Of a stretch of DNA of 40,392 nucleotides, positions 1-40,251 are shown in pieces. A program made the position numbers and the translations under genes. Origin of the DNA: an uncultured Eubacteriales bacterium (GTDB lineage: Bacteria; Bacillota; Clostridia; Peptostreptococcales; Anaerovoracaceae); the NCBI GenBank assembly GCA_902776725.1, contig CACYQX010000016.1, forward strand, positions 23,847 through 64,238, in the 5' to 3' direction. Every line of letters begins with the position of its first letter. The first letter of the stretch is position 1. The notes beneath the pieces were generated by a model. That model made no database searches, was not told the DNA's origin, and was given only the letters and a program-made list of their open reading frames with translations.

Positions 1-259
1 AGAAAAGCGCACCAAGTACATAAAGACCTGCTTCAATCCAGTTGTGAAGGAGAACGCCTATCGCGAGGAAGAGCACGACGATTACTATGATCATAGTTCT
101 GTACTCTCTCTTCAGGAATGCCATCGCACCTTCGTGGATGTATCCTGCAATTTCCTTCATTCTGTCAGTTCCCTCTTCCTGCTTGCCAATCCAGCTTGCA
201 AGTATGAATGCAACAATTAGGCCAATGGCTGCAGCAATGGGGGCTACCCATGTTATCAT
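1..259 (-). CDS. hppA: Membrane-bound proton/sodium-translocating pyrophosphatase, N-terminal part (cut by window edge)
   Basis: The first 86 codons are visible and the gene continues past the left edge. The ATG at 259-257 follows AAGGAGG with about 7 nt spacing. Residues 2-19 form a hydrophobic helix (ITWVAPIAAAIGLIVAFI). They are followed by the stretch GYIHEGAMAFLKREYRTM and a second hydrophobic segment, a pattern typical of the first two helices of V-type (H+/Na+) pyrophosphatases. These enzymes hydrolyse cytoplasmic pyrophosphate to pump ions across the membrane. Ion and potassium specificity cannot be judged because the catalytic loops lie outside the window. It is the last visible gene after secG and may be partly insulated from it by the hairpin at 299-325. 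Confidence 0.85.
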   Translation of the reverse strand, partial: MITWVAPIAAAIGLIVAFILASWIGKQEEGTDRMKEIAGYIHEGAMAFLKREYRTMIIVIVVLFLAIGVLLHNWIEAGLYVLGALF

Positions 260-298
260 GACTGTTACCTCCTTAATTCTCTTGTCATGCATATACAC

Positions 299-654: not shown

Positions 655-1443
655 TTAAGCGAATTCCACTATGCCCAAAAACTTCTCTGGTTCAAGGCTT
701 GCGCCGCCCACCAGAGCCCCGTCAATATCCTTCATAGCCATGATTTCAGAGGCATTTTCGGGTTTTACGCTGCCGCCATACTGAATGGTGATTCTGGATG
801 CAGTTTCGCTGTCATATATCTCTGCAACGGTTTCCCTGATCAAAGTGCACATTTCGCCTGCCTGCTCGGGCGTCGCGGTCTTTCCCGTGCCTATGGCCCA
901 GATAGGCTCGTAGGCGATTACCATGGTGGCAACCTTCTCGGCCGTTAAATCAGCGAGATCCTTCTCAAGCTGGTATTTTACTACCTCGGCGGCCCTTCCG
1001 GCCTCCCTTTCCTCAAGGTTCTCTCCAACGCATAGAATTGGCACTATCTCGCTGTCCCAGAAGATATGCTTAAGCTTATTGTTGATACTCTCGTCGGTCT
1101 CATTAAAATACTGGCGCCTCTCGGAGTGTCCGATAATGATGTAATCTACACCTATCTCAAGGAGCATGGATAGAGAGACTTCTCCGGTATAGGCACCCTC
1201 ATCGGCAAAATGCACATTCTGAGCACCTACACCAATATTGGTATCCTTAAATTCCTCAACAAGAGCCTGAAGCTGGGTAAATGGTGCGCAGATTGCAACC
1301 TTTGTTTCCTGCTCGCCTTTGTATATCTTCTTAAAAGCCTCGGCGAACTCCTTTGCTTCGGCGATATTCTTATACATTTTCCAGTTTCCGGCAATTAACG
1401 GGGTTCTTCCGTAAAAATCATGCCTTGCAACTTTATCTGACAT
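655..1443 (-). CDS. tpiA: Triose-phosphate isomerase
   Basis: A 262-residue cytoplasmic glycolytic enzyme that interconverts dihydroxyacetone phosphate and glyceraldehyde 3-phosphate. The active-site set is complete: N20 and K22 in AGNWKM, H106 in IIGHSERR, E179 in AYEPIWAIGTGK, and the phosphate-binding motifs YGGSV and LVGGASL near the end. The N terminus is about nine residues longer than usual before the first beta strand. No internal ATG offers a shorter start, so the extension looks real. The gene follows pgk by 10 nt and is co-transcribed with it. Confidence 0.97.
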   Translation of the reverse strand: MSDKVARHDFYGRTPLIAGNWKMYKNIAEAKEFAEAFKKIYKGEQETKVAICAPFTQLQALVEEFKDTNIGVGAQNVHFADEGAYTGEVSLSMLLEIGVDYIIIGHSERRQYFNETDESINNKLKHIFWDSEIVPILCVGENLEEREAGRAAEVVKYQLEKDLADLTAEKVATMVIAYEPIWAIGTGKTATPEQAGEMCTLIRETVAEIYDSETASRITIQYGGSVKPENASEIMAMKDIDGALVGGASLEPEKFLGIVEFA

Positions 1444-1453
1444 AATTTTTCCT

Positions 1454-2644
1454 CTACTTTTCTGAAATAACGGCTATTCCCGGAAGTTCGATTCCCTCAA
1501 GGAATTCGAGCGAAGCGCCGCCTCCGGTGGAAATATGTGACATCTTATCTGCAAATCCGAGTTGTTCAACCGCCGCTGCGGAATCACCGCCTCCTATGAT
1601 GCTCACCGCATCTGATTCCGAAATCGCACGAGCGACTTCTTCCGTTCCCTTTGCAAAATTGGGCATCTCGAATACGCCCATGGGACCGTTCCAGACTACA
1701 GTCTTGGCATTTAGGATTTCGTTTCTAAACAACTTAATGGATTCGGGACCGATATCCAATCCCATCATATCCTTAGGAACTCTGTCTCTTGGGAAGACCT
1801 CGATATACGCGTCATTTGCGAACTTATCTGCACAGACCGCATCTACGGGAAGAAGCAGCTTTACCCCCTTCTCTTCCGCAAGCGCAATCAGATTACTTGC
1901 GATATCTATGCTTTCTTCGTCGAGAATTGACTTTCCGATTTCAAGACCCATGGCTTTGAAAAAAGTAAACATCATTCCGCCGCCGATTATAAGGGAGTCG
2001 ACCTTTGTAAGGAGATTCTCGATGACCTTGATTTTGTCTCCGACCTTTGCGCCACCCATGATTGCAACAAACGGGCGCTCCGGATTACTGAGAGCATCTC
2101 CAAGATATTTAACTTCCTTCTCGATCAGGAATCCCGAAACCGCAGGAATATAGTCAGCAACACCGGCCGTTGATGCATGAGCTCTGTGAGCCGTACCGAA
2201 TGCTTCCTGAACAAATATGTCTCCCAAGGAAGCGAGTTCCTCGGAGAAAGCAGAATCGTTCTTTTCCTCCTCTTTTCTGAAGCGAACATTCTCAAGAAGT
2301 GCAACCTCGCCCGGCTTGAGCTTTGAAACCGTGTCCTTGACATCCTCATCCACAACCGCATCAGATGCCGCAAATATTATCGGCATCTCAAGAAGGTCCG
2401 TCAGTCTAACGGCAACGGGTGCAAGGGAGAATTCCTCCTTCGGTTCGCCCTTTGGTCTTCCGAGATGAGACATAAGAACCACAGCCGCGCCCTGAGCAAC
2501 CAAATACTCAATCGTCGGGAGTGCAGCGCGTATTCTTGTATCATCCGTTATCAAACCCTCTTTATCCAGCGGTACATTGAAATCGCATCTTACGAGAGCT
2601 CTTTTTCCTGCCCACTCGATATCTCTTATCGTCTTTTTCATCAT
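1454..2644 (-). CDS. pgk: Phosphoglycerate kinase
   Basis: A 396-residue two-domain glycolytic kinase that transfers phosphate from 1,3-bisphosphoglycerate to ADP. Visible motifs are RCDFNVP (19-25), SHLGRPKG (59-66), the hinge and nucleotide region [30 protein letters not shown] (from 351) and [13 protein letters not shown] near the C terminus. Length is normal. Two consecutive ATG codons open the gene, with AGGTG a few bases upstream. It begins five bases after the gap stop codon, so gap, pgk and tpiA form one tight transcription unit. Confidence 0.97.
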
Positions 2645-2649
2645 TTCAC

Positions 2650-3828
2650 CTATTTCTTCGCTTTTCCAACTGTTTTCTTTGCAGTTTTTTTTGCAGCCGT
2701 CTTTGCAGGCTTTTTTGCAGCCGCCTTTGCAGGCTTTTTTGCAGCCGCCTTTGCAGGCTTTTTTGTGGCCGCCTTTACGGGCTTTTTCTCTGTTGTTTTT
2801 GGTGTATCGGATTTTTTATCGACGCTATACATATACTTAATGAGTTCAAGGAGCTTGGATGCATAACCGAACTCGTTATCGTAATATGCTATGAGTTTAA
2901 AGAATTTGTCGTTAAGCTCTATTCCTTCTCTTGCATCAAAGATCGATGTGCAAGGATCGCCGACAAAGTCTCCGGAAACAACTTCATCATCTACATACTC
3001 GATTACGCCCTTCATCGGACCGTCGGCAGCCTTCTTTACCGCTCTGCAGATATCCTGATAGTGAGCGGATTTCCTTAGCATTACATTGAGGTCAATAATT
3101 GAAACGTCCGCAGTAGGAACTCTATACGAGATACCTGTCATCTTTCCTGCGAGAGTCGGAATAACGAGACCTACTGCCTTGGCTGCACCCGTGGTTGAAG
3201 GAATGATGTTTCCGAATACGCTTCTTCCTGTTCTCCAATCCTTCATTGAACGCGCATCTACAACTTTTTGTTTTGCGGTCGCAGCATGAATTGTGGACAT
3301 GAGACCTTGCTCAATTCCAAAATTGTCTTCAAGAACCTTACAGAGCGGTGCCAAGCAGTTTGTCGTGCATGATGCGTTTGAAACTACCTGCATATCGCTC
3401 TCATAGAGTTTATGGTTAACGCCATAGACAAACGTCGGTGTGGTTTTATCCTTTGCGGGAGCTGAAATGATAACCTTCTTCGCCTTTCCGTAATTGATAT
3501 GAGCCATCGAATCCTCGGTGGTTACATATGCACCCGTTGCTTCGATGATGTATTCTGCCCCGCATTTTTCCCAAGGTATATGTCTTGCTTCGCCTTCGCT
3601 AAAAACGGCAACCTTCTTGCCATCGATAATCAGTCCTCCGTCGTATTTCTTAACCGATACCGGAAAACGACCAAAGGTTGTATCGTATTTAAGCATATAT
3701 ACCATATAGTCGAGATCGGCGTTTCTCACGTTGATTCCAACCAGTTTGATTTCGGGCATTGCCAGCGATGCTCTGATTGCAACCGTTGCAATTCTTCCGA
3801 ATCCATTAATTCCAACTTTAATAGACAT
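2650..3828 (-). CDS. gap: Glyceraldehyde-3-phosphate dehydrogenase with Lys/Ala-rich C-terminal tail
   Basis: A 392-residue protein; the core (about 1-337) is a normal phosphorylating GAPDH. Seen: GINGFGRIA at the dinucleotide fold, catalytic C154 in [13 protein letters not shown]181 in [12 protein letters not shown], and YDNEFGYA (316-323). Two features are odd. First, the usual Asp after the second beta strand (IND in most NAD enzymes) is replaced: residues 32-36 read I-N-V-R-N. This may relax NAD over NADP preference. Second, residues 338-392 form a histone-H1-like tail with 22 Lys in 55 residues, including four 8-residue repeats of the type KPAKAAAK. The start has GGAGG six bases upstream. 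It is the first gene of the gap-pgk-tpiA unit. Confidence 0.96.
2687..2782 (-). repeat. Four tandem 24-bp repeats encoding the GAPDH tail
   Basis: Four 24-bp units lie head to tail at 2687-2710, 2711-2734, 2735-2758 and 2759-2782. The two middle units are identical, the first differs at one base, and the last differs at several. On the coding strand each unit gives eight residues of the KPAKAAAK type. The repeat stays in frame, so changes in copy number would lengthen or shorten the tail without a frameshift. Confidence 0.95.
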
Positions 3829-34993: not shown

Positions 34994-36442
34994 ATGGGAA
35001 TGACTATGACACAAAAGATTCTTGCGGACCACGCCGGCCTCGAATCCGTTTCGGCCGGCGAACTTATTAACGCCAAGCTTGACATGGTTTTGGCGAACGA
35101 TATAACCGGTCCGGTTTCCATAAATGAATTCGAAGAAAACGGTTTCTCTGAAGTCTTCGACAGGAGCAAAATTGCTCTCGTCATGGACCATTTCGTACCA
35201 AACAAAGATATCAAGAGCGCAGAACAATGCAAGCAGTGCAGAACCTTTGCAAAAAAATACGATATCAATAATTTCTACGATGTCGGTGAGATGGGAATTG
35301 AGCATGCCCTTCTTCCGGAAAAAGGCCTCGTGGCACCGGGAGAAGCAATAATTGGAGCAGACTCCCATACCTGCACATACGGAGCACTCGGAGCCTTCTC
35401 TACGGGAGTCGGTTCAACCGACGTGGCTGCGGCCTTTGCTACGGGAGAAGCATGGTTTAAGGTTCCTTCAGCAATCAAATTCCACCTTCGCGGCGAACTC
35501 TCACCCTACGTAAGCGGAAAGGATGTAATCCTTCACATTATCGGTATGATAGGCGTCGATGGCGCCCTGTATAAATCAATGGAGTTTACGGGACCCGGAG
35601 TCGCCTCACTCTCAATCGACGACAGACTTACAATAGCAAATATGGCTATCGAAGCCGGCGCAAAGAACGGCATCTTCCCCGTCGACGACGTAACAAAGAA
35701 ATATCTAAAGAATCGCCTTAACCGCGATTACAAAATATATGAAGCAGACGACGACGCGAACTATGACGCAATATACGACATAGATTTATCGGATATAGTT
35801 CCAACCGTCGCCTTCCCTCATCTTCCGGAAAACACAAAGACGTTTTCGGATATCCCCGAGATAGAAATCGACCAGGTAGTAATCGGCTCCTGCACAAACG
35901 GAAGATTCAGCGATATGAAAGCGGCCTGGGAAATAATCAAGGGACGCCACGTAGCAAAAGGCGTGCGAGCAATAGTTATACCCGCCACCATGCAGGTATA
36001 TAAAGAATGTATGCAAAAAGGTTATATAGAAGACTTTATCGATGCGGGATTCATCGTATCCACCCCAACATGCGGCCCCTGCCTCGGCGGTTATATGGGA
36101 ATTCTCGCTTCGGGCGAGCGTTGCGTATCGACGACCAATAGAAATTTTGTCGGACGCATGGGTCATACGGAATCCGAGGTTTATCTCGCAAGTCCTGCCG
36201 TAGCTGCAGCTTCTGCACTTACCGGTAAGATTTCAGATCCAAGAATCGTCGACAGCAAGGCAGAGGTAAAGGCTGAGAAGAAGGCAGAAAAGAAACTCGG
36301 CAAGGCAGAAAAACTAGCCGGCAAAGCGGAAAGAGCAGCCGCAAAGGCCGAGCTTGCCGCCGAAAAAGCAAAGACTAAAGAAAGCAAGAGCAAGGCAAGG
36401 AAGCCAAAAGCTACAAAGAAAGAAAAAAAGACTAAAAAATAA
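34994..36442 (+). CDS. leuC: 3-Isopropylmalate dehydratase large subunit with Lys/Ala-rich tail
   Basis: 482 residues; the aconitase-type core ends near residue 418 and matches the usual ~420. Seen: the [4Fe-4S] cysteines in [13 protein letters not shown] and [13 protein letters not shown], and [23 protein letters not shown]. It works with LeuD to isomerise 2- to 3-isopropylmalate. Residues 419-482 form an extra low-complexity tail with 23 Lys and 2 Arg against about 9 Glu and 1 Asp. Its first two thirds are Lys/Ala/Glu helix-like, and the end is strongly basic ([16 protein letters not shown]). GGAG lies 8 nt before the ATG. Confidence 0.96.
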
Positions 36443-39711: not shown

Positions 39712-40251
39712 TTATTCTTCTGTCTTTTCTTCCACTGCTTCTTCTACTGCCTCAGTTGCTTCTTCAACAACTTCTTCAGCTGCTTCTACGGTTTCCACCG
39801 CTTCTTCAGCCGCAGCCTCGGCAGCTTCTTCTGTATTTGCTACAACAGCTTCTTCTACCAATTCTTCGGTAACTTCGGAAGCGTCAGCAATTACGTTCTT
39901 TACAGAAGCTCCGTCCTTAATCTTAATCTTGGCAGCCTTACCTGTTCTCTCACGCATGTAGTTGAGCTTAGCACGTCTTACATCGCCGTGTCTGATAACC
40001 TCAATCTTTTCAATCCATGGTGAGTGGAGCGGGAATGTCTTTTCAACGCCTACTCCGGAAGACATCTTTCTTACGGTAAATGTCTCTGCGATACCGCCGT
40101 TCTGTCTCTTAAGCACAAAGCCTTCGAAGACCTGGACTCTTTCTCTGTTTCCTTCTTTAATTCTAATGTGGACCTTAACCTGGTCGCCAACATTGAACGC
40201 AGGGATGTTGCTCTTCATATAATCTTTTGCAACAGCATCAAGAATGTTCAT
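39712..40251 (-). CDS. rplS: 50S ribosomal protein L19 with Glu/Ala-rich tail
   Basis: 179 residues from the ATG at 40251, preceded by AAGGAGG. Residues 1-120 are a complete L19 ([87 protein letters not shown]). Residues 121-179 are an extra acidic tail with about 23 Glu, one Asp and one Lys among Ala, Val and Thr, rich in EEA and EAVEE patterns. L19 lies at the 30S-50S interface. A longer in-frame reading from 40338 merely translates the leader. Same order as in B. subtilis (rplS-rbgA-rnhB). Confidence 0.96.

Follow-up and report, generated by a model that had tools for sequence, protein, structure and literature searches.

The gap locus and the GAPDH tail

The window, the whole stretch of 40,392 nucleotides that was analysed, carries a gap-pgk-tpi cluster on the minus strand, downstream of an rpoN-like gene (pgk, tpi and rpoN were named by eye). 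The gap gene (2650..3828, minus strand) encodes a type I glyceraldehyde-3-phosphate dehydrogenase (GAPDH) of 392 amino acids; pgk (1454..2644, minus strand) is the next gene, starting 5 bases past the gap stop, and is followed by tpi (655..1443, minus strand). An HppA-like membrane pyrophosphatase gene was also seen by eye downstream of tpi (window positions 2-298, loci L310 and L308; also in genomes G012 and G010). The genome of origin (G000) comprises 1.45 Mb in 32 contigs, was judged 85% complete, and has named relatives that include Emergencia and Eubacterium minutum, so that it probably belongs to Anaerovoracaceae, the family of Emergencia.

The enzyme itself is conventional. It scored 392.7 bits over residues 4-327 against the NCBIfam GAPDH-I model TIGR01534 (curated cut-off 367.2), which places it in that family, and the motif SNASCTTNC with the catalytic cysteine, at residues 150-158, is invariant across 33 aligned rows. 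The predicted structure has the fold of solved GAPDHs (Foldseek E 3.4e-50). The Pfam C-terminal domain stops at residue 316 and the last helix of the structure model reaches residue 340, whereas residues 342-392 have pLDDT below 50 and no secondary structure. This last stretch makes up most of a lysine-rich, predicted disordered tail (codons 338-392; 2653..2817, minus strand), and in tailless relatives the C-terminus lies one or two residues past the point where the tail starts. A preliminary description made from the letters of the window had placed the tail at 2650-2815, right to within one codon, and its account of 55 residues with 22 lysines, two acidic residues and four near-identical 24-bp units is borne out: the tail contains 22 Lys, 15 Ala, 5 Pro, one Asp and one Glu. 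The four units (2686..2781, minus strand; located by Tandem Repeats Finder and unit alignment) code 32 residues and share 20, 24, 24 and 22 of 24 bases with the second unit; Tandem Repeats Finder itself reported 4.6 copies of 24 bp with 91% matches and a score of 173 at 2677-2787. Net charge at pH 7 is +19.7 for the tail and +0.9 for the core, or about +21 for the subunit, and GAPDHs of three tailless congeners have charges of -4 to -11 per subunit. Given the tetramer expected of GAPDH, the assembled enzyme would have a charge of roughly +80.

Distribution of the tail among species

GAPDH was read in all 13 genomes of the genus, one genome per species, with G000 representing the window species. 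Tails were found in 6 of the 13 species (G000, G001, G003, G012, G002 and G007), and the other seven have the usual ends of the family. The tails extend 12 to 54 residues beyond the core: 40 in G001, 46 in G003, 39 in G012, 17 in G002 and 12 in G007. Those of the sister species G001, G003 and G012 are 34-43% lysine, with a residue order that differs from the window tail, and are written in mixed AAA and AAG codons and three or four alanine codons, by eye without the 24-bp repeat; those of G002 and G007 are short and of KKPAKK type. The possibility of an assembly or frameshift artefact, which the preliminary description had named as grounds for abandoning its claim, is ruled out, because in-frame tails that differ in sequence are present in the genomes of three sister species.

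In 111 C-termini read from 105 of 111 loci, a lysine tail of the window kind occurred only in the six carrier species, three of which were present twice; of the six loci left out of that reading for want of the motif, five were found tailless when reread with a looser motif and one (L097) is cut off. Weak look-alikes were seen at L107 (EEAEKEAKKAAKK), L100 (ending KKKK) and L012 (KVVPAPLKK). No new carrier came from another 48 loci, among which the window, G012 and G006 recur. In one wider search, and in addition to ends read separately, GAPDH ends were read in 50 of at least 171 matching genomes, namely the 30 best loci and 20 more, the latter mostly chosen for alignments that extended into the tail. 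With a tail-weighted query, which could miss more distant GAPDHs and whose recovery of other carriers was uncontrolled, E 1e-12 was reached in 3 of 391 Clostridia genomes, and of these the window alone aligned over its tail. The four long tails gave no match in Pfam or NCBIfam up to E 10, a result to be read in the light of how often low-complexity tails escape such models. Searching the window's own genome with its tail returned nothing else convincing; of two further matches at E 0.05, one is another frame of the tail locus and the other belongs to a protein rich in Ala, Pro and Glu. The literature offered no GAPDH with a comparable tail, as judged on titles and the beginnings of abstracts, most subscription papers excepted.

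Origin of the tails

A tree built from 38 GAPDH cores unites the four long-tailed species (100/100) and places the short-tailed G002 and G007 in a separate clade (100/98) beside the tailless G010. A single clade of all six carriers was rejected on the core-only tree (AU test, p 0.0004) and parsimony required 2 changes, so that the lysine tail was probably gained twice in the genus; this is the history of one gene with bootstrap values that are unsettled, and transfer or loss could mimic two gains. The 24-bp units of the window probably arose after the split from the sisters, because they agree even at silent sites, and the window tail probably grew in part by duplication of these units. The tail may have been derived by read-through into former intergenic space; gap-pgk spacing varies widely among tailless relatives.

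Charge of the folded core

The difference between carriers and other species extends to the folded domain. Net charge over the whole core ranges from -1 to +4 among the six carriers (the loci of G001, L010, and G003, L004, are truncated at the start). After second GAPDH paralogues were dropped and identical cores collapsed, 95 distinct cores remained, and in this post hoc analysis the carriers differed from 89 tailless cores with Mann-Whitney p values of 3.5e-5 (whole core) and 1.6e-4 (shared columns), kinship being ignored. Over the shared columns carriers lie between -4 and 0 against a tailless mean of -6.4, with 16 of the 89 tailless cores at -4 or more. These calculated charges indicate that the folded GAPDH core is more basic in tail carriers. 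Cores of -2 to +3 were also seen at L100, L105, L108 and L109 (the last titled Mogibacterium), which have no long lysine tail.

The substitutions involved were followed in both lineages. From the tailless G010 to G002 and G007 there are 27 and 29 substitutions, and in each case 12 raise the charge and 2 lower it. Changes on the G010 branch may account for part of this contrast: sites 82, 84 and 168 are possibly G010's own changes, because the outgroup G008 already has Lys or Arg there. At sites 27, 139 and 257, acidic residues kept in G010 are missing in both carrier lineages; site 27 is Asp or Glu in 86 of 89 tailless rows. The excess is smaller in the long-tailed clade, where each of three comparisons with Emergencia (L035) gave 10 raising and 6 lowering changes. 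Against the family mean it is modest in both clades (14 up and 9 down in the long-tailed, 17 up and 12 down in the short-tailed), and a few tailless rows match the carrier values.

Four control proteins were considered alongside. PGK and TPI of the carriers show no rise in basicity (TPI of G002 was partly read), the L19 cores of four carriers (G000, G003, G012 and G001) resemble those of seven other species, and LeuC cores of the carriers G000, G003, G002 and G007 overlap with tailless ones. Because none of the four shows a clear rise, the GAPDH shift does not plainly reflect a proteome-wide drift, a statement that rests on these four proteins. The LeuC core of G002 is the least acidic of those of full length, at -9 against -15 in G010, which is a hint that part of the charge drift in G002 is not specific to GAPDH.

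Selection on tail composition

Among the sisters, 4-7% of core residues differ as against 51-69% of four-fold silent sites. Across the 179 residues of the four long tails there are nevertheless 70 Lys, with 1 Arg and 4 acidic residues, and the other window ORFs, pooled, contain 7.3% Lys and 4.7% Arg. Because this lysine, arginine and acidic make-up was held despite such silent divergence, the comparison indicates that tail composition is under selection, with lysine content kept while the sequence turned over. Neutral change was simulated by substitutions without indels, with the extant tails as ancestors and 2000 runs per long tail; a run passed if it retained an open frame, at least 34% Lys, at most 3 acidic residues and at most 1 Arg. 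At 0.5 changes per site no run passed for any of the four tails (0 of 2000 each). The verdict depends on the silent divergence, since 1 to 35 of 2000 runs passed at 0.25 changes per site and 103 to 655 of 2000 at 0.1.

The alternative that these data address most directly is a nearly neutral outgrowth, in which a tolerant C-terminus was lengthened by slippage of Lys/Ala codons and kept as harmless. C-termini do tolerate additions, the window's 24-bp units look recent, and a range of 12 to 54 residues would suit a loosely constrained extension. However, the sister tails are free of stops and nearly free of acidic residues and Arg despite large silent divergence, their codons are mixed, the same make-up was probably gained twice, and the core is more basic too. 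The simulation also counts against neutrality, but it lacks indels and starts from extant tails, and repeated regrowth by slippage could fit its outcome. On balance a neutral origin is considered unlikely.

Other charged tails in the window and genome

The preliminary description had joined the GAPDH tail to a basic tail on LeuC and an acidic tail on L19, both of which are present in the window, and had proposed a genome-wide habit of adding charged tails to housekeeping proteins, possibly a common polyelectrolyte system. The LeuC extension past residue 420 (36254..36439, plus strand) consists of a K/E-rich helix-like part and then a lysine-rich end; the K/E-rich extension was seen in 7 of the 9 orthologues compared within the genus (the window and L135-L142), and only those of the window and G003 add the lysine-rich end. 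Ribosomal protein L19 has its A/E-rich tail (approximately 39715..39909, minus strand) in 5 of 11 orthologues. With GAPDH at 6 of 13 species, the three tails differ in history.

As to the habit itself, the basic part was not supported. A scan of 680 kb of G000 (47% of the genome) yielded 594 ORFs, of which 4 passed a loose basic-tail cut, and clear long tails were found only in GAPDH and LeuC. The other two are a Lon-like protein (named by eye) whose C-terminus is a short lysine stretch, and an ORF left open at the edge of a scanned stretch, perhaps not a true gene. In part-genome samples the basic cut was passed by 3 of 381 ORFs in G000, 0 of 299 in the sister G012, 0 of 346 in the tailless congener G005 and 1 of 337 in the same-order G037. 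The acidic part fared better: 8 of the 594 ORFs passed an acidic cut, and in the samples acidic low-complexity C-termini numbered 7 of 381 in G000 (L112-L131) and 4 of 299 in G012 (L173-L192), against none in G005 (346 ORFs) or G037 (337 ORFs), some of them looking like ordinary acidic ends, in genomes that differ in G+C. A taste for acidic C-termini in this clade is thus possible; a joint polyelectrolyte system is conjectural. One long ORF (L120, 12282-14378), by eye an IspH-like reductase with S1-type repeats, carries a strongly A/E/P-rich acidic tail at its C-terminus.

Relation to known systems

The closest likeness is to the HupB-type proteins of mycobacteria and other actinobacteria, in which Lys/Ala/Pro repeats likewise follow a folded core at the C-terminus. 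The HupB tail, with PAKK/KAAK motifs, is described as indispensable for nucleoid association (PMC5676037), lysine repeats are reported in actinobacterial TopA, Ku, HupB, HrdB and HupS (PMC7398561), and such tails on HupB and TopA are described as stabilising DNA contact (PMC5676037, PMC7398561). Prokaryotic lysine-rich low-complexity regions are more generally reported to associate with DNA and RNA binding (PMC6821194). The window tail has the Lys/Ala/Pro composition and the predicted disorder expected of a tail of this type. However, the HupB-type core is a DNA protein, whereas here it is a glycolytic enzyme for which DNA binding is putative, and the window tail has PAK three times and KAAAK twice but neither PAKK nor KAAK literally; PAKK occurs in the tails of G001, G002 and G007.

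Disordered C-terminal extensions on GAPDH have a precedent in GapB of photosynthetic GAPDH. That extension is CP12-like, about 30 residues long, and uses two redox cysteines to put the C-terminus into the active site (PMC4436894), whereas none of the six tails of the genus contains Cys, which sets them apart from GapB-type extensions. Charged low-complexity sequence on housekeeping proteins is also familiar from the A/E- and K-rich regions of L19, L21 and other ribosomal proteins, and 24 of 32 bacterial L19 low-complexity regions are reported to be mostly Ala and Glu (PMC6821194); the word glyceraldehyde is absent from the main text of that paper. The A/E tails of L19 are therefore already described; the tail on GAPDH is a variant of the known lysine-repeat type in an unexpected place.

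Proposed function

The preliminary description had suggested that the tail could bind nucleic acid or acidic partners, for which its polycationic make-up would make it fit; such tails do recur in related genomes (6 of the 13 species). The reading favoured here, at somewhat short of an even chance, is a cationic GAPDH kept by selection and bound to a polyanion, RNA or DNA being the likeliest. Four flexible Lys/Ala tails per tetramer, together with a more positive core surface, would provide a non-specific electrostatic hold, and the anchor would be an anionic polymer, most likely RNA and ribosomes or the nucleoid, by analogy with the lysine repeats of HupB and TopA. RNA and DNA are the most abundant polyanions of the cell. 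Against this reading, the genus's own HU proteins (PF00216; found in 10 of 13 genomes, with open frames of 98-107 aa) have no tail, so lysine tails do not typify its nucleoid proteins. An HU-family gene was not found in G000, G001 and G007, which may reflect assembly gaps.

As the chief specific alternative, the cationic GAPDH could pair with acidic glycolytic partners, chiefly the PGK encoded by the adjacent gene, so that 1,3-bisphosphoglycerate would be handed on in a loose electrostatic complex. The window PGK is strongly acidic (-21.1 at pH 7) and TPI, the control protein, is at about -18. Over the compared stretch PGK of the six carriers is at -15 to -23 against a mean of -12.2 in 65 tailless rows (p 0.001, uncorrected and post hoc; species present in two collections were counted once by dropping L032, L033, L044, L045, L047, L052 and L062). 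However, in a separate comparison the most acidic PGK (-26) belongs to the tailless G008 and the tailless G010 and G011 (-20 and -21) fall among the carriers; charges of GAPDH core and PGK are uncorrelated in a set of 69 rows (Spearman -0.17, p 0.18), and TPI has no charge shift. A charge-matched GAPDH-PGK pair is a weak lead, and as an explanation of the tail it is judged distinctly unlikely. PGKs of -17 to -22 were also noted at L105, L108 and L109.

Moonlighting at the surface, with exported GAPDH held on anionic cell-wall teichoic acids or binding host plasminogen through lysine, is improbable: GAPDH at the cell surface and plasminogen binding that depends on lysine are familiar from other bacteria, but no signal or anchor was seen by eye in the window GAPDH. 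A polyphosphate-binding site is disfavoured and considered very unlikely, for although lysine-rich sequences, including the similarly disordered stretches of PASK and lysine-polyphosphate targets, are reported to bind polyphosphate in bacteria (PMC12077175, PMC12345225), PPK1 (PF02503) was found in none of the 13 genus genomes, several of them incomplete (control positive in 7 of 14), and the PASK pattern of at least 15 D/E/S/K in 20 residues is absent from all six tails (maximum 10 in the window tail and 12 in that of G012).

Polyanion binding by a selected cationic GAPDH thus remains the preferred reading. A broader proposal, tentative and on the whole doubtful, is that the genus rebuilt GAPDH twice, in tail and core and with acidic losses at some shared core sites, into a polycationic enzyme that works while anchored on RNA, on the nucleoid or on an acidic partner from glycolysis, its location being set by charge alone.

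Charged tails on neighbouring genes, as the window illustrates, need not share a cause. What the GAPDH tails do suggest is that a small group of gut-type bacteria has placed a histone-like tail on an ordinary sugar-burning enzyme, apparently twice. For the question of whether glycolytic enzymes have fixed places in bacteria, and what anchors them, two apparent natural gains, with the tailless sister G010 beside G002 and G007 as a control, would make a charge-based tether directly testable.
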